Shown: piece by piece, positions 4,564 through 14,347 of the stretch
How positions within the stretch are numbered: the stretch's first letter is position 1
Layout of the letters: every line of letters begins with the position of its first letter
NCBI GenBank assembly: GCA_021846285.1
Contig: JAJZCB010000035.1
Location: 1-35,109 of the forward strand
DNA length: 35,109 nucleotides
Source: Bacillota bacterium
GTDB lineage: Bacteria > Bacillota > Bacilli > Alicyclobacillales > SLC66
Direction: 5' to 3'
Translations under genes and position numbers: made by a program
The notes under the pieces: model-generated
The model's input: only the letters and a program-made list of their open reading frames with translations
What the model was told of the DNA's origin: nothing
Databases searched by the model: none

Positions 4564-5080
4564 AGTCGTGTTCTGTCGCTAAAGGGTGCGAGTGCGACAC
4601 AAGGGGCTCCCGATGACTTTACGATCCCAAATTCGTTTCAGAGTACATGGAACCCGTTTCTTTCGCTGAGTTTGCCGATCTTCTTGACGCCTCCAACTGG
4701 TCATCGCCACAACCAATAGTGATTTTGTAATACACCCCCCCCCCCATCGTGCTGGCTAAACATTTTGAGATATAATAAATGCGGACCTTTCCCATTGTGC
4801 GCTACCGGGGTTCCAGCAGTTCGTGTACGAATTGCCGCCTCCCCCTTCTGCCCGATGTGTTGACTGGACTGCTGCAATAAAGCAGCGGACGTGATTCTAA
4901 ACCCCGGCAACAGGATCCCCGCACTTGTAACGAGAGCAATAGACGCCGCGCGAAATTTCCCCTGCGATTTCAACGCAACATCACCCTCCTGACATCCACG
5001 GTTCCCGGATAGACGCTTCATATGCCAAACAGGTTACACAGTGTGCCCCGGATGACTCAATTGATTTAGGAGGAGTGCTT
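4564..5080. other. Gene-poor intergenic region with an 11-C tract
   Basis: No convincing gene. It contains a homopolymer of 11 C at 4735-4745 and a short plus-strand frame at about 4619-4730 reading YDPKFVSEYM, then EPVSFAEFADLLDASNW, which looks protein-like but has no start and no recognised family. A minus-strand 106-codon frame over 4701-5021 lacks any family signature and is not accepted. Confidence 0.4.
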
Positions 5081-5545
5081 ATGTTCTATAGACGGAAGTC
5101 TTATATCGTAAAGAGTGATTTTGTCGACATTTTCAATGTTCATTTCAATAACACAAACCTGCCTAACCAGATCAAACACGGTGCTCGTCTAATAGGTCGG
5201 TGGATGAAGGCGAATGACGATAATATCACAGAGATTTTTGCCATTTGGGAATATGACAGTTATCAGGACTATATAGACATTGAATCCAAGGTGAGAAGCG
5301 ACGAGGCGCACAACAAACGTATTCAAGACTGGTATGAGAAGAATGGAGGAAGAGAACACGTGTATAAGGAGTACATCTTAGAAGTCAAAAATGAACCATT
5401 AGAATCCACTGTAAATCAGACCAAAGCGCCCTCCTATGGTTGGACATCAGAACCACAAGAGACATCCCCTCCGACTAAATTTGACAATGCATCACCATTT
5501 TCGGATTCCACACAAAATATCGAGAGGCCGAACGGAAGTACGTGA
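5081..5545 (+). CDS. NIPSNAP-family protein
   Basis: The first about 105 residues resemble the NIPSNAP domain, a ferredoxin-like alpha/beta barrel fold related to antibiotic-biosynthesis monooxygenase dimers: FYRRKSYIV, then HFNNTNLPNQIKHGARLIGRW, IWEYDSYQDYIDIE and VYKEYILEV. The remaining about 45 residues are Ser/Pro/Asn-rich and look unstructured. ATG 5081 is chosen because AGGAGG at 5068-5073 is spaced seven bases from it; a GTG at 5075 overlaps the ribosome site. Function is unknown; a cytosolic small-molecule-binding or heme/antibiotic-related role is only a family guess. No operon partner follows. Confidence 0.8.
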   Translation: MFYRRKSYIVKSDFVDIFNVHFNNTNLPNQIKHGARLIGRWMKANDDNITEIFAIWEYDSYQDYIDIESKVRSDEAHNKRIQDWYEKNGGREHVYKEYILEVKNEPLESTVNQTKAPSYGWTSEPQETSPPTKFDNASPFSDSTQNIERPNGST

Positions 5546-6184: not shown

Positions 6185-6982
6185 TCACTCGTGGAACTTC
6201 TGATATATGTCTGCCCGCCGATTGCCTAGATAGTTCATCAATTCCGTTTGCCGGACTGTCTGAATATCGCAGACGTCCACATCTGCGGTCACCAATTCTT
6301 CATCGTTTCCTCCCTTCACAAGAAATTCGCCTGTCGGTGACACCACACCGCTTACACCAAAGAACAGGGTTGTATTTTCTAAACCCACGCGATTGGCCGC
6401 CGCGACAAACACTTGATTCTCCAAAGCCCGCACCCGAAGGAAGAGTTCCTGATGAGACTCGTACGGAACTGTATGGGCATGGAGAACGACGAAGATATCC
6501 GCCCCCTGCAACGCATACTGGCGAGGGAGTTCTGGAAATTCGAGATCAAATGTCATCATAATGGCTACCCGTTCCCCTGATACCAATGTATGCAAAGGGC
6601 AATCGTCGCCTTGGTGAAAATACTCTTTCTCCTCCGCGAATAGATGTGTCTTTCGAGATATTCCGGTGATGGAACCGTTACGCTCAATCAGGACCGCCGA
6701 ATTGTAGAATCGCCCATTATCCTCTTCCGGAAAACCCATGACCACACCGATGTTCAGTTCCCGTGCTTGCCTGCAAAGTGCCCGAATACTGTCGCCCGTC
6801 AAAGGCTCGGCCAATTGTCGAATGTGATTCCGAATGTAATAGCCTGACAGAAACAGTTCGGGGAAGATGACGTAGTCACATCCCCGCTTGCTAAACTCAT
6901 GGAGAATAGTCAGGGCCCGCGCTAAATTGTGCTCTTTGTCCCCAAGTACACCTCGAACCTGAGCAAGCCCAAGTCGAATCAT
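6185..6982 (-). CDS. Nitrilase-superfamily protein with Thr in place of catalytic Cys
   Basis: A 265-aa carbon-nitrogen hydrolase-fold protein. Of the Glu-Lys-Cys triad, Glu is present (E42 in FPELFLSGY) and Lys is present (K111 in SRKTHLF). The nucleophile position is Thr144: the strand reads AIMMTFDLEFPELP where active relatives have xICYDxxFPE. The rest of the fold, including the ALQGADI helix, the AANRVG strand and the SPTGE turn, is intact, so the gene is not decaying. The protein may be a binding or regulatory pseudoenzyme, or may use another nucleophile. AAGGAG precedes the ATG by about 12 bases. It lies 52 bases downstream of the sigma-54 activator gene on the same strand and is probably co-transcribed with it. 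A normal paralogue with Cys is encoded at 8564. Confidence 0.88.
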   Translation of the reverse strand: MIRLGLAQVRGVLGDKEHNLARALTILHEFSKRGCDYVIFPELFLSGYYIRNHIRQLAEPLTGDSIRALCRQARELNIGVVMGFPEEDNGRFYNSAVLIERNGSITGISRKTHLFAEEKEYFHQGDDCPLHTLVSGERVAIMMTFDLEFPELPRQYALQGADIFVVLHAHTVPYESHQELFLRVRALENQVFVAAANRVGLENTTLFFGVSGVVSPTGEFLVKGGNDEELVTADVDVCDIQTVRQTELMNYLGNRRADIYQKFHE

Positions 6983-7034: not shown

Positions 7035-8279
7035 TCAAATGGGCATGCCCCTATTGCGATATTTTTGCATTTTTTTGACAATCGTCGACTGGTCTACCTG
7101 AAGAACTTCCGCCACTTTGTAAGTGCTTTGGTATATTGAATATGCATGGATAATCATTTGGCATTCCAACTCTCGCTTCGCTTCCCTCAGCGACCCGAAA
7201 CGCGGATTGGCGGACGCACCCGTTTCCGACGTACGGATGTTGGATGGAAGATGTTCCCACATGATCACCAACTCATCGTGAATGATGAACAGCCTCTCCA
7301 CCAGATTTTCCAACTCACGCACGTTTCCGGGCCAATGGTACGACTCAAACGCCGCTTCGACCAAGGGGTCGAACGATTTTTGTAATCCGTATTTCTCGGA
7401 AAGACGGTTCAAGAAGAGGCGTGCGAGCGGAATAATTTCTTCTCGTCTTTCGCACAGACTAGGAATTTCGATTGGAATGACGTTCAGCCGATAATATAGA
7501 TCCTCGCGAAACTCTCTTTGCCTTACAAGCAGCGGAAGATCACGGTTCGTAGCTGCAATGACGCGCGCGTCAATCATCACTGGGCTAGTCGCGCCGATGC
7601 GACGGATACATCGATCCTGGAGAACTTGAAGCAGTTTGACCTGAAGACTCACGGGGAGATCAGCAACCTCGTCCAGAAATACAGTTCCGCCATTCGCCGC
7701 TTCAAAAATGCCCCTCTTGCCTGAGCGATCCGCACCCGTAAAACTTCCAGGCGCATACCCAAACAGTTCGGCTTCCATCAGAGACTCAGGCAAGGCTCCA
7801 CAATTGACCGAGAGGAAGTTTTGATGCGAACGGCTGCTGGCGTTGTGTATGAGACGGGCGATTCGGCTCTTGCCAACACCGGACCGTCCGAGCAGAAGAA
7901 CCGTAGAATCGACGAAAGAAACCTTTTGCAGAATGTCCTCTACCTGTTTCATTCGGGGAGATTCGCTCAGGAACGGGGGTCTGGAACCGTCGTGTTGTTT
8001 TATGGTGTCTCTCCCGCTGGCTGCGGAGTCCAACCGTAAGCCCACTAATACATGATCTTCGAGACGCACCGCACAGAAACGAATACGCCCCAAATCCAAC
8101 TCCAATATGCGACCATGGCACAACTGGCGAACTTCGCTCTCTATGTCCTGGCGAAACTCAGCGGCGCGACCACCTAAGTGGGTCTTGACCCATTCATACT
8201 GCTCTTGAGACAAGATGAATGGATCACTTGGTGTGATCTGGTTCGTAACCCAGTCCGTTAGTATACGCAATTCATTCAT
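7035..8279 (-). CDS. Sigma-54-dependent transcriptional activator (enhancer-binding protein)
   Basis: A 414-aa bacterial enhancer-binding protein that would remodel sigma-54 RNA polymerase using ATP. The AAA+ domain spans about residues 103-335: Walker A GRSGVGKS (131-138), the sigma-54 contact loop as GSFTGA (178-183, the common Ser variant of GAFTGA), Walker B VFLDE (200-204) and the arginine-finger region FREDLYYRLNV. The C-terminus has a Fis/TyrR-type helix-turn-helix (VAEVLQVDQSTIVKKMQKY). The first about 100 residues form a short sensory domain I cannot assign; no receiver motif is visible, so ligand or protein sensing is likely. AGGAGG lies 9 bases before the ATG. It is divergent from a -24/-12 promoter at 8487, its obvious target. 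Confidence 0.93.
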   Translation of the reverse strand: MNELRILTDWVTNQITPSDPFILSQEQYEWVKTHLGGRAAEFRQDIESEVRQLCHGRILELDLGRIRFCAVRLEDHVLVGLRLDSAASGRDTIKQHDGSRPPFLSESPRMKQVEDILQKVSFVDSTVLLLGRSGVGKSRIARLIHNASSRSHQNFLSVNCGALPESLMEAELFGYAPGSFTGADRSGKRGIFEAANGGTVFLDEVADLPVSLQVKLLQVLQDRCIRRIGATSPVMIDARVIAATNRDLPLLVRQREFREDLYYRLNVIPIEIPSLCERREEIIPLARLFLNRLSEKYGLQKSFDPLVEAAFESYHWPGNVRELENLVERLFIIHDELVIMWEHLPSNIRTSETGASANPRFGSLREAKRELECQMIIHAYSIYQSTYKVAEVLQVDQSTIVKKMQKYRNRGMPI

Positions 8280-8328
8280 GCGCTATACCTCCTCGGGATA
8301 GAACATATCGGGTAGGACCAATGAAAAA

Positions 8329-8349
8329 AAACATTGTAATGATATGTTT
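8329..8349. promoter_or_regulatory. Candidate activator-binding dyad in divergent region
   Basis: AAACAT at 8329-8334 and ATGTTT at 8344-8349 form a perfect inverted repeat with a 9-base spacer, flanked by AATGAAA and a matching TTTCATT. It lies about 140-160 bases upstream of the -24 element, a usual place for enhancer sites of sigma-54 activators. A second, looser inverted pair is TTCAGAAAACAC near 8358-8369 with GTGTTTTTCAGAA near 8455. Confidence 0.4.
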
Positions 8350-8486
8350 CATTAACATTCAGAAAACACTGCGCACTCTGTCATTTAGTCGCATATTTTT
8401 TTGACAAGAGATGAAATTAATCATCATATTAGCACAAAAGACAATGACATTGGTGTGTTTTTCAGAAGACAAAACGGAATCGACCC

Positions 8487-8504
8487 TTGGCATGAAATTT
8501 GCTT
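8487..8504 (+). promoter_or_regulatory. Sigma-54 (-24/-12) promoter
   Basis: TTGGCATGAAATTTGCTT fits the sigma-54 consensus: GG at 8489-8490 and GC at 8501-8502 are separated by exactly 10 bases, with TGGCA before and TTGC after. The start point would fall near 8514, leaving a leader of about 50 bases before ATG 8564. The divergent enhancer-binding protein gene next door makes this a strong call. A TTGACA at 8401-8406 with CATATT 18 bases on could be an additional sigma-A promoter. Confidence 0.85.
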
Positions 8505-8563: not shown

Positions 8564-9421
8564 ATGGACAACAAGGTCACGCTCGGTCTTGTGCAAATTT
8601 CCTGCACGAATCACATTGAAGAAAACATCGAGCGGACCATAGCTCGAGTGATTGAGGCCGCAACACGGGGTGCTCAAATCATTTGCCTACAGGAACTGTT
8701 TGATCTTCCCTATCTTGCCCAGCGGGTAGACATACACGGATACGAACTGGCTCGATCCGTAGAAGAGAACCCTGTTTTGCATAGACTCGGTACTTTGGCA
8801 GGAGAACTTGGCATCGTTCTCATCGTGCCATTCTATGAAAAGGCGGACCGTGGTTTGTACTTCAATACGGCCGCTGTGTTTGACGTTGACGGGCGATTGC
8901 TGGGAACCACAAGAAAATCGCACATCCCTGATGGCCCGCAGTATCACGAGAAGTACTATTTCACACCTGGAAATTCGAATTATCCGGTGTACAGCACGCG
9001 TTTCGGGCGGATTGGAGTTGGGATTTGCTGGGATGAGTGGTTTCCCGAAGTGGCTCGAATCTTAAGCCTCAAAGGTGCAGAGATCCTGTTTTATCCGTCG
9101 GCCATTGGTTCGGAGCCTGACCATCCAGAGTTATCGACAAAACCGATTTGGGAAAAGGCAATTTCCGCACATGGCATTTACAACGGAACCTTCGTGGCTG
9201 TCGTCAATCGAACGGGCAAGGAAGACGAAATGACGTTCTATGGAGGGAGTTTCATCAGCAATCCGTTTGGTGAAATTATCTCACAGCTGAATGGGGAAGA
9301 AGGGGTTCTCGTGCAGGAAATAGACAGAAACGATATTTCTTCTGCACGCCATCTCCTTCAATTCCTGCGAGATCGTCGTCCGGAAACGTATGCACCGCTG
9401 CTCCATCAAGAATTGCGGTAG
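8564..9421 (+). CDS. Carbon-nitrogen hydrolase, N-carbamoylputrescine amidase-like
   Basis: A 285-aa nitrilase-superfamily amidase with complete triad: E44 (CLQELF), K118 (RKSHIP) and C155 (GVGICWDEWFPE). The stretches PQYHEKYYFTPG, EILFYPSAIGSEP and FYGGSFISNPFGE, plus the RDRRPETY terminus, closely follow the N-carbamoylputrescine amidohydrolase/beta-ureidopropionase branch, enzymes that split carbamoyl amides to amine, CO2 and ammonia. ATG 8564 is chosen because AAGGAG at 8551-8556 is spaced 7 bases from it and the frame upstream runs through the sigma-54 promoter. It is the first gene of the sigma-54-controlled unit, followed by an amidohydrolase and an amine/amino acid permease, which suggests catabolism of an N-carbamoyl or amide nitrogen source. 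The exact substrate is inference. Confidence 0.88.
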   Translation: MDNKVTLGLVQISCTNHIEENIERTIARVIEAATRGAQIICLQELFDLPYLAQRVDIHGYELARSVEENPVLHRLGTLAGELGIVLIVPFYEKADRGLYFNTAAVFDVDGRLLGTTRKSHIPDGPQYHEKYYFTPGNSNYPVYSTRFGRIGVGICWDEWFPEVARILSLKGAEILFYPSAIGSEPDHPELSTKPIWEKAISAHGIYNGTFVAVVNRTGKEDEMTFYGGSFISNPFGEIISQLNGEEGVLVQEIDRNDISSARHLLQFLRDRRPETYAPLLHQELR

Positions 9422-9468: not shown

Positions 9469-11079
9469 GTGCAAGCAGATTTTGTGTTATCTAGCAATGC
9501 TGTTTTTACGGGGATGAGAAATGAGCCGGAGTCGCTATCCATTGCGGTTGCTGGGCAAACCATCATCGGCATCGGATCGTCGGAGGACGTGGAACCATGC
9601 ATCGGTCCGGTAACGCGACAATTTAAATTTGAAAACCAGTTGATTTTACCTGGTTTTCATGACTTTCACGTTCATCTGATGATGGGTAGTCTCTTTCTCG
9701 ACAGTGTGTGCCTGTCCACAATGCGTTCTGAGCGCGAGGCTGCCATGCGTGTCAAAGAATTTGCAGATGCGCACCCAAACGACTCGTGGATAATTGGTTG
9801 GGGATGGTACAAGGACAACTGGGAACACAAACAATTGCCAAGCAGGCACTCACTAGATGAAGTCGTTCGGGATCGACCGGCATTTCTGTTCAATGCGGAA
9901 CTGCATGGCGCTTGGCTTAACACGCGCGCCCTAGCGGAATTAGGCATTTCTCGAACCACCCCAGACCCGCCCTTTGGTAGGGTGGAGAGAGATAATACCG
10001 GGGATCCGACCGGATTCCTCTATGAAACCGCGATGGGTTTGTGGCAAAATGCATGCATCCTTCCTTGGGGCAAACGCCAGAATCTATTGGATAACTTCCT
10101 GAGACAAGCGCGGCAACTGGGAGTGACGGCTGTGCATGATATGTTTCCTTTGCCAGGGCTCGATTTTGGCGATCTGTCGTTGTACGAGTGGTTTGAACAA
10201 AATGAGCGACTAACATTGCGCCTGCACTTCCTGTCTGCGTTGAACGGCAATTTGGAACAAGCGAGAAACCAGAGAGCGCAATACCGGTCAAAGACATTGC
10301 AATTTTCCGGGTTAAAGCAATTCCTCGATGGAGTTCCGTCCGCCTACACAGCCTTCACGGTCGATCCGTACTCGGACCGACGAGACACATGCGGTGACAC
10401 ACTCATACCTCCAGATGTAATTCAAACATGGGTGGCAGATGCAGATCGTGAAAAGTTTCGCATCCGTTTGCATGCCTGTGGGGACGCAGCCGTCCGCTTG
10501 GGGCTCGATCTCTATGAACATGCCCGCAATCTCAACGGTCAACGTGATTCACGGCACGCCATAGAACATATCGAGGTCATTCATCCGGACGACATCCGTC
10601 GCCTGTCTGACCTGGGTGTGATTGCCTCCATGCAACCTGAACATGTTGCGGCCACACAGTGTTTCACTGACAACCCGTATCGATATCGATTTGCAGGGGA
10701 GCGCTTGCGTTACTTGTGGCCGATGCGCACGTTGCAAAGCCATGGAACATCTATGGCGTTTGGTACTGATTTCCCGGTGGTTGGGTTAAATCCGTTCGTC
10801 TCTGTATATCGTGCTGTGACTCGAGTTCATGACGACGGAGAACCCTCTGGTGGTTGGAATCCAGAAGAACGAATCGCACTGGCCGATGCACTGCGTGCCT
10901 ATACCATGGGTTCTGCCTATGGTGCTTTTCGAGAATCGGAACTCGGAACTTTGGAAGTTGGGAAATTGGCGGATCTAGTGGTGCTTGACCGGAATCTGTT
11001 TCAGATTTCGCCAGATGACATCAAATCAGCGCGTGCCGTGTTGACAATGATGGGCGGTCGAGTCGTGCATCAGGCATAA
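9469..11079 (+). CDS. YtcJ-like metal-dependent amidohydrolase
   Basis: A 536-aa amidohydrolase of the YtcJ/exoenzyme-regulatory AepA type. Seen in order: small beta-sandwich N-terminal strands, the metal-binding HxH (H67, H69 in HDFHVH), the IIGWGWYKDNW segment typical of this subfamily, a later metal His region RLHACGDAA, IEHIEVIH, and the metal Asp in FGTDFPV, then the closing LGTLEVGKLADLVVLD sandwich. These enzymes hydrolyse amide or related C-N bonds; the substrate here is unknown. The GTG start at 9469 is supported by GGGAGGGAG about ten bases upstream. It follows the carbamoyl amidase by 47 bases and precedes the permease, so it belongs to the sigma-54 unit. Confidence 0.9.
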   Translation: MQADFVLSSNAVFTGMRNEPESLSIAVAGQTIIGIGSSEDVEPCIGPVTRQFKFENQLILPGFHDFHVHLMMGSLFLDSVCLSTMRSEREAAMRVKEFADAHPNDSWIIGWGWYKDNWEHKQLPSRHSLDEVVRDRPAFLFNAELHGAWLNTRALAELGISRTTPDPPFGRVERDNTGDPTGFLYETAMGLWQNACILPWGKRQNLLDNFLRQARQLGVTAVHDMFPLPGLDFGDLSLYEWFEQNERLTLRLHFLSALNGNLEQARNQRAQYRSKTLQFSGLKQFLDGVPSAYTAFTVDPYSDRRDTCGDTLIPPDVIQTWVADADREKFRIRLHACGDAAVRLGLDLYEHARNLNGQRDSRHAIEHIEVIHPDDIRRLSDLGVIASMQPEHVAATQCFTDNPYRYRFAGERLRYLWPMRTLQSHGTSMAFGTDFPVVGLNPFVSVYRAVTRVHDDGEPSGGWNPEERIALADALRAYTMGSAYGAFRESELGTLEVGKLADLVVLDRNLFQISPDDIKSARAVLTMMGGRVVHQA

Positions 11080-11169
11080 GCGTCCGCCGATCAAGAGTAC
11101 GGACAATTCTTTTTTATCTCTGTCGTTTGTTTGAACAGTATTGCACTCGAGTTGCAAGGGGGAATTTCT

Positions 11170-12552
11170 ATGTCAGCCAACAACAAAAAGGCACAAGGCT
11201 TGGAGCGGAGTCTGGGATTTGGAACATTGTTGGCCATTGCCGTATCCAGTGTTTCGCCGACGACATCCGTATTCATCAGCTTCGGCTCTATGCTGACCAC
11301 GGTCGGAACAGGTGTGGCGCTCGCATTTCTGGTGGGTGGGGTGATCGCCGTTCTCAATAGTTTGGTGTACGCAGAGTTGGGCACCGCCTTTCCCATTTCC
11401 GGAGGGGCTTATGCCATTATTCTTCGCGTCTTTGGCAAACCATTGGGACTGATCACGGCCATCCTATATCTATTGTTGGGGCTTGGTTCTGTGCCGTCAC
11501 TGGCGATTGGCACGGCGAGTTATCTGAACACCATGTTTCCGGGGATATCGACGACCATTTTTGTGATCGCGGTTATTGTCTTGGCGACTTTGCTCGCCAT
11601 GGCCCGCATACATTCTGCATCTTGGGTGACGGCAGTCATGGTGATACTTGAATTTGCCATCATCATAGCAGTCACCATACTGTGTTTTTCTCACGTAATT
11701 CATCCGCTCTCGCTTGGTTTTACAACACGCGCGGTCGAGGCGAGAGGAATTGGCGGCAGCCTGGGTATCGGGGTTCTGTTTGTTGCTCTGCCCATCACTC
11801 TGTTCTCGTTTTCCGGCTATGAACTGTCCCAAAACTTTTCCGAGGAGACGACCAACGTCCGGAGAGTGCTGTCCCGAACCATCATCATCTCTGCCGTCAT
11901 TGGCGTCGTCATTGAGACGCTGGCTGTGCTAGGATTGACGTTGGCGGCGAAGAATCTCGGAGCCGCTACCTCGGCGACCATGCCTGCGTACGCCATTGTT
12001 CAACAAGCGCTTGGTGGCAACATCGCAACCATTTTGTTGATTGGCGTCATCATTGCCACCCTGGATTGTACAATTGCGGTGAACATGAGCTATATTCGCG
12101 TGTTCTACAATGCAGCGAGAGACGGCATGTTTACCCGACGCTTGTCAGAATGGCTGTCCAATGTATCTACGTCCACGCGCGTGCCAGTGCGGATCGCAAT
12201 CGTTTGGGGGATCATGGTACTCATCATCTCTGTTGTGGGCAGTCTCAGTGCAGTGCTTGCATTCACGGGCGTTGTCCTTGTTCTCATCTATGCGCTGGTT
12301 TCAGTGGCTTCATTCTTTGCCAGACGAAAATTCCCAGAACGAATGGTCTTTCGCATGCCCCTGTGGCCACTTCCTGCACTGCTTGTGCTTATCAGCTTGA
12401 TCTACGTGTTGACCCAGCAAACGCCAAGATTTCTGGAGATCACCGGAGGTGTCATTGTGGTGACAGCGCTGTATTATGCGATCGTGTTGCGAAATGGCTG
12501 GCGCACCCAACGTATCGCCGATCCCGAAGATGTCGTTGACGTACTTGCCTGA
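11170..12552 (+). CDS. APC-superfamily amino acid/polyamine permease
   Basis: A 460-aa integral membrane transporter with about 12 hydrophobic helices. The first helix region SLGFGTLLAIAVSSVSPTTS and the GGAYAI motif after helix 2 mark the APC superfamily (amino acid, polyamine, organocation symporters). ATG 11170 is preferred to the in-frame start at 11131 because AAGGGGG at 11155-11161 is spaced about 8 bases from it and MSANNKK is a normal cytosolic N-terminus. It lies 90 bases after the amidohydrolase gene and probably imports the substrate broken down by the two hydrolases, or exports an amine product. No clear terminator follows. Confidence 0.9.
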   Translation: MSANNKKAQGLERSLGFGTLLAIAVSSVSPTTSVFISFGSMLTTVGTGVALAFLVGGVIAVLNSLVYAELGTAFPISGGAYAIILRVFGKPLGLITAILYLLLGLGSVPSLAIGTASYLNTMFPGISTTIFVIAVIVLATLLAMARIHSASWVTAVMVILEFAIIIAVTILCFSHVIHPLSLGFTTRAVEARGIGGSLGIGVLFVALPITLFSFSGYELSQNFSEETTNVRRVLSRTIIISAVIGVVIETLAVLGLTLAAKNLGAATSATMPAYAIVQQALGGNIATILLIGVIIATLDCTIAVNMSYIRVFYNAARDGMFTRRLSEWLSNVSTSTRVPVRIAIVWGIMVLIISVVGSLSAVLAFTGVVLVLIYALVSVASFFARRKFPERMVFRMPLWPLPALLVLISLIYVLTQQTPRFLEITGGVIVVTALYYAIVLRNGWRTQRIADPEDVVDVLA

Positions 12553-12997: not shown

Positions 12998-13792
12998 TCA
13001 CATAACGGCGGGCTTTCCATAACCCTTAGATTCTGCGGCGTAGGGCTTCGCATAGAGCAGGCGGATTCCGAGCTTTGAGCAAGTGCGCATCATCCACTTC
13101 GTGCGGTATTGTCTCCCATTATCGAAGAACGCTGCATCCGGCGCTCCGTACTTGTGTACCGCTTGACGAAAGCAGTCCTCCACGATGACCTGGTCGAGCG
13201 TGAGGTAAAATTCGGCATGCAGAATCAGCCGCGTTGCATCATCGATCATCGCCACCAGGTACACCTGCTGCTGACTGCCGCGTGGACCGATCGGAAGGTG
13301 CGGCCCATATTTGATGTCGCTCATCCACAACTGGTTACGGTGAGGGTGGGCAAACCGCCGGGCTGCTACGCCCGTTTGCGTCACCATCCGCATATGACGG
13401 CTACTGTATCCAAGGGCCGTCAACCGCTCCTGCAAGGTACTGCGCTTGATTTCACCCGGTTGTGCCTTGCCTTCCCATTCCAGAATCTGAATAATTCCCG
13501 CGACGCTGCGTCCGGGTACCTCTCTGCGCAATACAATGGCTTGCTCCAACAAAGATTCCGGGATCGCTGACCGGGAGGATGTGCCCTTACCCTTAGGCTT
13601 GAGTCCAGAGAACCCGGACTCCTGGTACCGCGCCAGATACCGCCGCACCGTTCGCTCGGATAGGCCCGTCTGTGCACAGACCTCGGCCATGAGCACCCGC
13701 TTTCGGGCCGCATCCAGCCCGGGTGCCAACAGTGGAGCCAACCACTGCACCCGTACAGCCGCCGTGTCTTCTGCTTTTTGATGGTCTTTCAT
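12998..13792 (-). pseudogene. DDE (rve) transposase, C-terminally truncated
   Basis: From the ATG at 13792 (GGAGGTGG seven bases upstream; an in-frame ATG at 13825 is less likely) the product is 264 aa. An N-terminal helix-turn-helix (CAQTGLSERTVRRYLARY) precedes an rve-type integrase core with the first Asp in WMSDIKYGP, a second metal-contact strand in AMIDDATRL, and the second catalytic Asp in AFFDNGRQY. Relatives continue PYxxxSKGKIERF, where the Glu of the DDE triad comes about 35 residues after the second Asp. Here the frame reads AESKGYGKPAVM and stops, so the catalytic Glu and the C-terminal domain (roughly 100 residues) are missing. The break lies at about 13018-13024. The protein cannot transpose on its own. 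Confidence 0.75.
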
Positions 13793-13840
13793 GCCATCCA
13801 CCTCCAATGAAAGAGAGTCTGGCATGAATCTACCGCCGAT

Positions 13841-14347
13841 CTACGTGGACATCCACGCCGAACGGGTTGCTACGTACAAATGAGCGTTGGCTATAGGACG
13901 GACCGTTCTGGCCAGCCATCCGCCAGCATTGCCAACATACCGTCCAAGGTCACGGAGTGCAGAGGGTGTCGGGCTGGACGAAGCCTCGACACACAGGAAG
14001 AATCGTTGCCGCAATGCCTCCAGACATCCACAGGCATACGGGGCCCACCACGCAAACCACGCGCGCCAGCGGTTCAGGGTCGACTCGTCGGCCGACACAC
14101 TGGAGGACTCTCGATTCTCGATGACCTGCTCGATGCTTGACGCTTCATGACGTTTATCGGGAACCAACACATCGGGAAGCTCGTGATGGATCTTGTTACA
14201 GTCGACACAATGCAGACGTCGGATGAGCAACCACTGCTTCCCGCCCGATCCGAGGATCTGACTACGCCGCCTTCGACCGAACAACTCCAGCGCGCCCTGA
14301 CAACAAGGACAAGGCAAGCATTCCGCACTCCTGACCAAAAAAGCCAT
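13841..14347 (-). CDS. DUF6431 domain protein (IS-associated)
   Basis: A 168-aa protein with an N-terminal Cys cluster (C10, C13, C15, C16 in ECLPCPCC) and a following LHCVDCNKIHHELPD segment, typical of the DUF6431 zinc-ribbon proteins encoded just upstream of DDE transposases. A PDKRHEASSIEQVI stretch and the ESTLNRWRAWFAWWAPY segment also match that family. It presumably assists transposition or binds element ends; no reaction is known. It is transcribed toward the transposase, with 48 bases between. The start ATG at 14347 has only a weak upstream purine stretch, so the true start could be slightly different. Confidence 0.65.
   Translation of the reverse strand: MAFLVRSAECLPCPCCQGALELFGRRRRSQILGSGGKQWLLIRRLHCVDCNKIHHELPDVLVPDKRHEASSIEQVIENRESSSVSADESTLNRWRAWFAWWAPYACGCLEALRQRFFLCVEASSSPTPSALRDLGRYVGNAGGWLARTVRPIANAHLYVATRSAWMST

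Follow-up and report, generated by a model that had tools for sequence, protein, structure and literature searches.

What does a nitrilase-fold protein do once its catalytic Cys has given way to Thr? The question is raised by a gene in the window (the whole 35,109-nt stretch of DNA analysed here, from a Bacillota bacterium), which sits beside the gene for a sigma-54 activator (bEBP) and across from a divergent operon encoding a Cys-bearing paralogue (Table 1). A preliminary description, made from the letters alone, had proposed a retained pseudoenzyme or altered chemistry, with ligand sensing or heteromeric partnership as the role. Our analysis indicates that the Thr144 protein is probably a former nitrilase, repurposed as a ligand-sensing co-regulator of the activator.

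Table 1. Features of the module and its divergent operon in the window
Feature	Position	Strand	Basis
Nitrilase-fold protein, 265 aa, Thr144 at the nucleophile Cys site	6185..6982	-	Uninterrupted ORF, PF00795, AF2, relatives
Thr144 codon ACA, nucleophile-elbow position	6551..6553	-	Translation and alignments
Sigma-54 activator (bEBP), 414 aa: N-terminal ~100 aa, AAA+ domain with GSFTGA loop, HTH_50	7035..8279	-	Pfam, translation
Weak enhancer-like palindrome CAATGA-N6-ACATTG, 3 mismatches to TRATGA-N6-TCATYA	8319..8336	.	Motif scan
Enhancer-like palindrome TAATGA-TATGTT-TCATTA, perfect copy of the shared motif	8337..8354	.	Motif scan
Second enhancer-like palindrome AGATGA-AATTAA-TCATCA, 1 mismatch	8409..8426	.	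Motif scan
Sigma-54 (-24/-12) promoter of the divergent operon, TGGCATGAAATTTGCT	8488..8503	+	20 of 21 weighted points; 0/500 shuffles as good
Cys nitrilase paralogue, 285 aa, C155; AguB-like, near N-carbamoylputrescine amidase	8564..9421	+	TIGR03381 318 bits, cut-off 410
Amidohydrolase family 3 protein, divergent gene run	9469..11079	+	Pfam
APC-type amino acid or amine permease, divergent gene run	11131..12552	+	Pfam

The loss of the catalytic Cys with Glu42 and Lys111 intact, as first described, was borne out by the open reading frame, the profile search and the alignments. The CN_hydrolase profile (PF00795) matched the entire 265-aa protein at 190 bits (cut-off 23.2). The structure prediction suggested earlier was run with AF2 and 20 relatives and returned a confident nitrilase fold (mean pLDDT 93.9), whose top PDB matches, all full length at Z ~36, were mouse Nit2, PH0642 and the Pyrococcus abyssi nitrilase; the full-length profile match and the fold place the protein in the nitrilase superfamily. 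Glu42, Lys111, the second Glu (E118) and Thr144 fall within the motifs PELF, RKTH, EEKEYF and TFDLE, respectively, and Thr144 aligns with the nucleophile column of the relatives and, in the solved nitrilase 3ivz, opposite the Cys of an MICFD stretch. By the Glu-Lys-Cys triad the protein would not be an active superfamily enzyme: it keeps the Glu and the Lys, and the Cys is gone. None of its four Cys residues (35, 70, 128 and 238) is conserved among the relatives. It falls outside AguB (TIGR03381), at 102.9 bits against a curated cut-off of 410, and in a by-eye comparison it apparently lacked the Glu by which MtCPA positions the distal amine, so the identity of a ligand cannot be read off.

The one point that speaks for a lone mutation, a sequencing error or a decaying pseudogene is the rarity of such a substitution. 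A pattern-seeded contig scan (one genome per species) would by itself have suggested a lone mutation, as it returned Cys relatives alone, mostly 27–36% identical to the Thr144 protein. A class-wide genome search with the whole protein revealed a Thr/Ser group (41–50% identity), and a search in one family contributed another four, bringing the relatives to 14 (~40–51% identical) in seven other genomes. With the window's protein the sample comprises 15 copies in eight genomes, of a single evolutionary origin, with Thr at the nucleophile position in 11, Ser in four and Cys in none. Conservation in orthologues had been named beforehand as the check on the Thr, and the counter-case, in which they all carry Cys, did not hold. 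A stand-in Cys was also sought: no Cys elsewhere is conserved in the group, and one relative is devoid of Cys. Three base changes separate a Cys codon (TGY) from ACA, which rules out a single read error, and the codon varies synonymously among the group (ACA, ACT, ACG or ACC for Thr; TCC or TCG for Ser). In the two closest nitrilase pairs dN was 4–9% of dS (dN/dS values 0.029/0.70 and 0.067/0.71). Against the three base changes, the 14 further sequences, the low dN/dS and the intact fold, the lone-accident account has next to no probability; the earlier claim that the protein is not decaying was upheld on the same relatives, substitution rates and fold, and on these comparisons neither decay nor sequencing error would explain Thr144.

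The Thr/Ser proteins form a lineage of their own. Scored with a group profile, the 15 reached 319–465 bits and the best Cys relatives less than 260. They made up one clade (support 100/99) in a tree of 58 proteins from which the nucleophile column had been removed, and again in a tree of 51 proteins (100/100); the catalytic Cys would most simply have been lost once, in the ancestor of this clade, with a hydroxyl residue kept since. Eleven positions distinguish the clade from its Cys sisters, showing that the change exceeds a swap of nucleophile; among these positions are Gly83 and Leu167 (each 15/15), the latter mostly Asn or Pro in the sisters. The module looks rare, since a phylum-wide draw of 398 genomes added no further member. 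Viral contigs held no match to the Thr144 protein, and the plasmid collection gave relatives of <40% identity only, among the matches listed; the gene of a Sulfitobacter plasmid relative (L170) had no sigma-54 activator beside it.

Conservation of this kind might also be expected of an enzyme with altered chemistry, that is, a slow or different amidase with a Thr/Ser nucleophile, making or destroying an inducer and for that reason sitting with a regulator gene. Purifying selection is strong, the residue is a hydroxyl in 15/15 (Thr/Ser, never Ala or Gly), and Glu42, Lys111 and Glu118 are invariant throughout. We nonetheless judge this reading unlikely: replacing Cys by Ser in a plant relative left reactivity strongly reduced (PMC4812014), Thr and Ser have been swapped inside the clade, as would hardly happen under a tuned nucleophile geometry, and further positions differ from the Cys sisters, Leu167 for example. 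A variant of the sensor proposal, to which we give only slight credence, is a covalent chemosensor, in which the Thr/Ser would attack an amide or carbamoyl ligand to give a slow-hydrolysing ester adduct, the acylated form switching the activator; this would account for the retention of a hydroxyl alongside Glu, Lys and Glu. In beta-lactam sensors, acylation is on Ser.

A regulatory role is indicated by the company that the gene keeps. The adjacent gene, taken for a sigma-54 activator in the preliminary description, is one (PF00158 at 215 bits, HTH_50, GSFTGA at residue 178). A bEBP gene lies immediately upstream of the Thr/Ser gene on the same strand in 15/15 loci, with a gap of –7 to +9 nt in 14 of them and 52 nt in the window, and occupies that position for 0 of the 49 Cys relatives with room upstream; by gene linkage the Thr/Ser protein is a candidate trans-acting bEBP regulator, like PspA, HrpV or NifL in function. 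The corresponding Fisher P of 8e–14 ignores shared ancestry and overstates independence, the pairing having one evolutionary origin. All eight genomes with the module also have an RpoN (sigma-54) gene. Distance matrices of nitrilase and activator correlate, with r = 0.85 for the N-terminal part of the activator and r = 0.90 for the AAA+ part. A gene co-transcribed with the activator could instead be a bystander that acts elsewhere, for instance as a general amide buffer; we think this very improbable, given that the pair persists through changes in operon content and ~50% protein divergence.

No Pfam domain was matched, even at E = 1, by the first ~100 aa of the activator, which could themselves be a sensor. 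Among the best ~50 activators of the class, the N-terminus of the window's activator was matched only by nitrilase-paired activators, with one exception, from residue 35. Within subgroups this part is 24–26% conserved, against 57–60% for the nitrilase, poor conservation of the kind expected if the partner does the sensing. A structure model of the activator from its single sequence was unusable (mean pLDDT 34).

Each of the 15 activator–nitrilase pairs faces a divergent operon, and a –24/–12 promoter faces the pair in 15/15 of the gaps, 13 of them no more than 350 nt from the activator start and the remaining two starting at nt 341 and running just beyond the 350-nt limit; the chance background is 0.016 sites per 350 nt. 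The palindrome TRATGA-N6-TCATYA, with at most one mismatch, occurred at 21 sites in the 15 gaps (12 loci), against a mean of 0.085 and a maximum of 1 after shuffling, an enrichment that is partly by construction, as the motif was built from some of these gaps and the shuffles preserve base composition only. Promoter and palindromes together would place the divergent operon under the neighbouring activator.

The first divergent gene, described earlier as a paralogue with C155, is real, with its numbering taken from the ATG at 8564 rather than from the listed ORF start at 8411. The listed start precedes the sigma-54 promoter; the ATG at 8564, with AGGAG before it, follows the promoter and is probably the true start. 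The catalytic triad of this paralogue appears intact from its sequence. Across loci the operons encode a transporter of the APC or SSF type, except that two Ser-type loci (L097 and L099) have an aldehyde dehydrogenase beside the nitrilase instead; further genes, depending on the locus, encode a Cys nitrilase (AguB-like or of another kind), a protein of the histone-deacetylase family or an amidohydrolase. The histone-deacetylase family includes acetylpolyamine amidohydrolases. Operon content points to amide or polyamine catabolism, and the substrates it suggests are candidates only. Agmatine deiminase was dropped as a pathway partner: it had no match in the window's genome, which leaves a full agmatine–carbamoylputrescine route unsupported there. 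At L162, the operon nitrilase facing a Ser-type module (10997–11851, +) carries Ser (AGC, in IMSSYDLEFPE), with TGC in its L097 and L099 sisters; this Ser is an independent replacement of Cys. Also encoded in the window are a small NIPSNAP-like protein beyond the 3' end of the module (5075–5545, +; PF07978 at 21.9 bits, slightly short of the 22.3 cut-off) and, by the permease end of the catabolic genes, ORFs that resemble an IS-type transposase (HTH, integrase-like) on reading their translations (12998–14347, –).

A Cys paralogue is present in the divergent operon at 13/15 loci, and nitrilases oligomerise, so that the Thr/Ser protein might join the Cys nitrilase of the operon in a heteromer, as a partner or an allosteric subunit. 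This seems improbable to us, as the Thr/Ser gene is co-encoded with the activator and not with the enzyme, and the enzyme in the operon differs in subfamily between loci, being AguB-like in only some of them. At L161 the sigma-54 operon encodes a symporter and an enzyme of the histone-deacetylase family but no nitrilase, which speaks against the heteromer being obligate, and at L162 the operon nitrilase itself has Ser. Among the readings offered in the preliminary description, that of a retained pseudoenzyme acting in ligand sensing or regulation emerged as the best supported, and the heteromeric partner was weakened.

The window's own genome contains a second kind of pseudo-nitrilase, which overlaps a Cys nitrilase-like gene (L006, contig C127, 1243–2244 (–) and 11–1282 (–)) and has Gly for Cys (GVIVGRDAYYPE), His for Glu and Gln for Lys. 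Both genes lie downstream of an amidohydrolase, the dead copy being coupled to an enzyme-like gene and not to a regulator. Weak matches occur in similar positions in two genomes of the same genus, and a second such set lies on contig C75 (L007, L009).

How a retired nitrilase could inform an activator is suggested by two precedents. With its Cys mutated to Ser, plant N-carbamoylputrescine amidohydrolase retained its binding properties at strongly reduced reactivity, and crystals of this mutant with putrescine were obtained (PMC4812014). Where a sigma-54 activator has no regulatory domain itself, partner proteins such as PspA and HrpV control it (PMC7057263). By analogy, the Thr/Ser protein may accommodate in its pocket an amide or carbamoyl compound, either the operon substrate or a related one, and control the activator, turning the ligand over very slowly or not at all. 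The likely site of its contact with the activator would be the N-terminal part or the AAA+ ring of the latter; ligand would alter this contact, and the activator, on TRATGA-N6-TCATYA, would then open the –24/–12 promoter. The sign could be either of two: the free form may restrain the activator, as with PspA or HrpV, or the bound form may assist it.

If this proposal is right, an enzyme has here given rise to the sensor of a sigma-54 activator, in the form of a nitrilase-fold pseudoenzyme linked to an operon in which catalytic relatives of it are often encoded. The module would then serve as a clean system for the transition from enzyme to signalling protein and as a compact starting point for biosensors of amides or polyamines, and 'carbon-nitrogen hydrolase' annotations beside sigma-54 activators may denote non-enzymes. 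Pseudoenzymes and trans-acting bEBP regulators are each known kinds; in the open-licence literature searched we found no nitrilase pseudoenzyme with sigma-54, no description of a nitrilase-fold protein as such a regulator and no such module.

Among known systems, the amidases PH0642, P. abyssi nitrilase and Nit2 (1j31, 3ivz, 2w1v, 6ypa) are alike in full-length fold, at ~31% identity, and in Glu and Lys; they differ from the Thr/Ser clade, in which the Cys is Thr/Ser and the gene is tied to a sigma-54 activator. AguB/CPA (TIGR03381; MtCPA 5h8k, 5h8l) shares the fold, its engineered C158S mimics the natural substitution, and an AguB-like enzyme is encoded in the putatively controlled operon, whereas the Thr144 protein belongs to a different subfamily and lacks the catalytic Cys. 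For PspF and HrpS, a separate protein (PspA and HrpV, respectively) controls the bEBP (PMC7057263), as we propose for the Thr/Ser protein, whose contact with its activator is a putative one. The window's activator differs in its ~100 extra N-terminal residues. NifL acts on NifA, and NifL–NifA is likewise a gene pair; to our knowledge none of PspA, HrpV and NifL has a nitrilase fold. In the AmiC–AmiR system the sensor, AmiC, folds like a periplasmic binding protein and the regulator, AmiR, works as an antiterminator, with no sigma-54, unlike the Thr/Ser module. The likeness there is one of arrangement: in the Pseudomonas aliphatic amidase operon too, a sensor gene lies beside a regulator gene, and the operon controlled is that of an amide hydrolase (PMC5259723).
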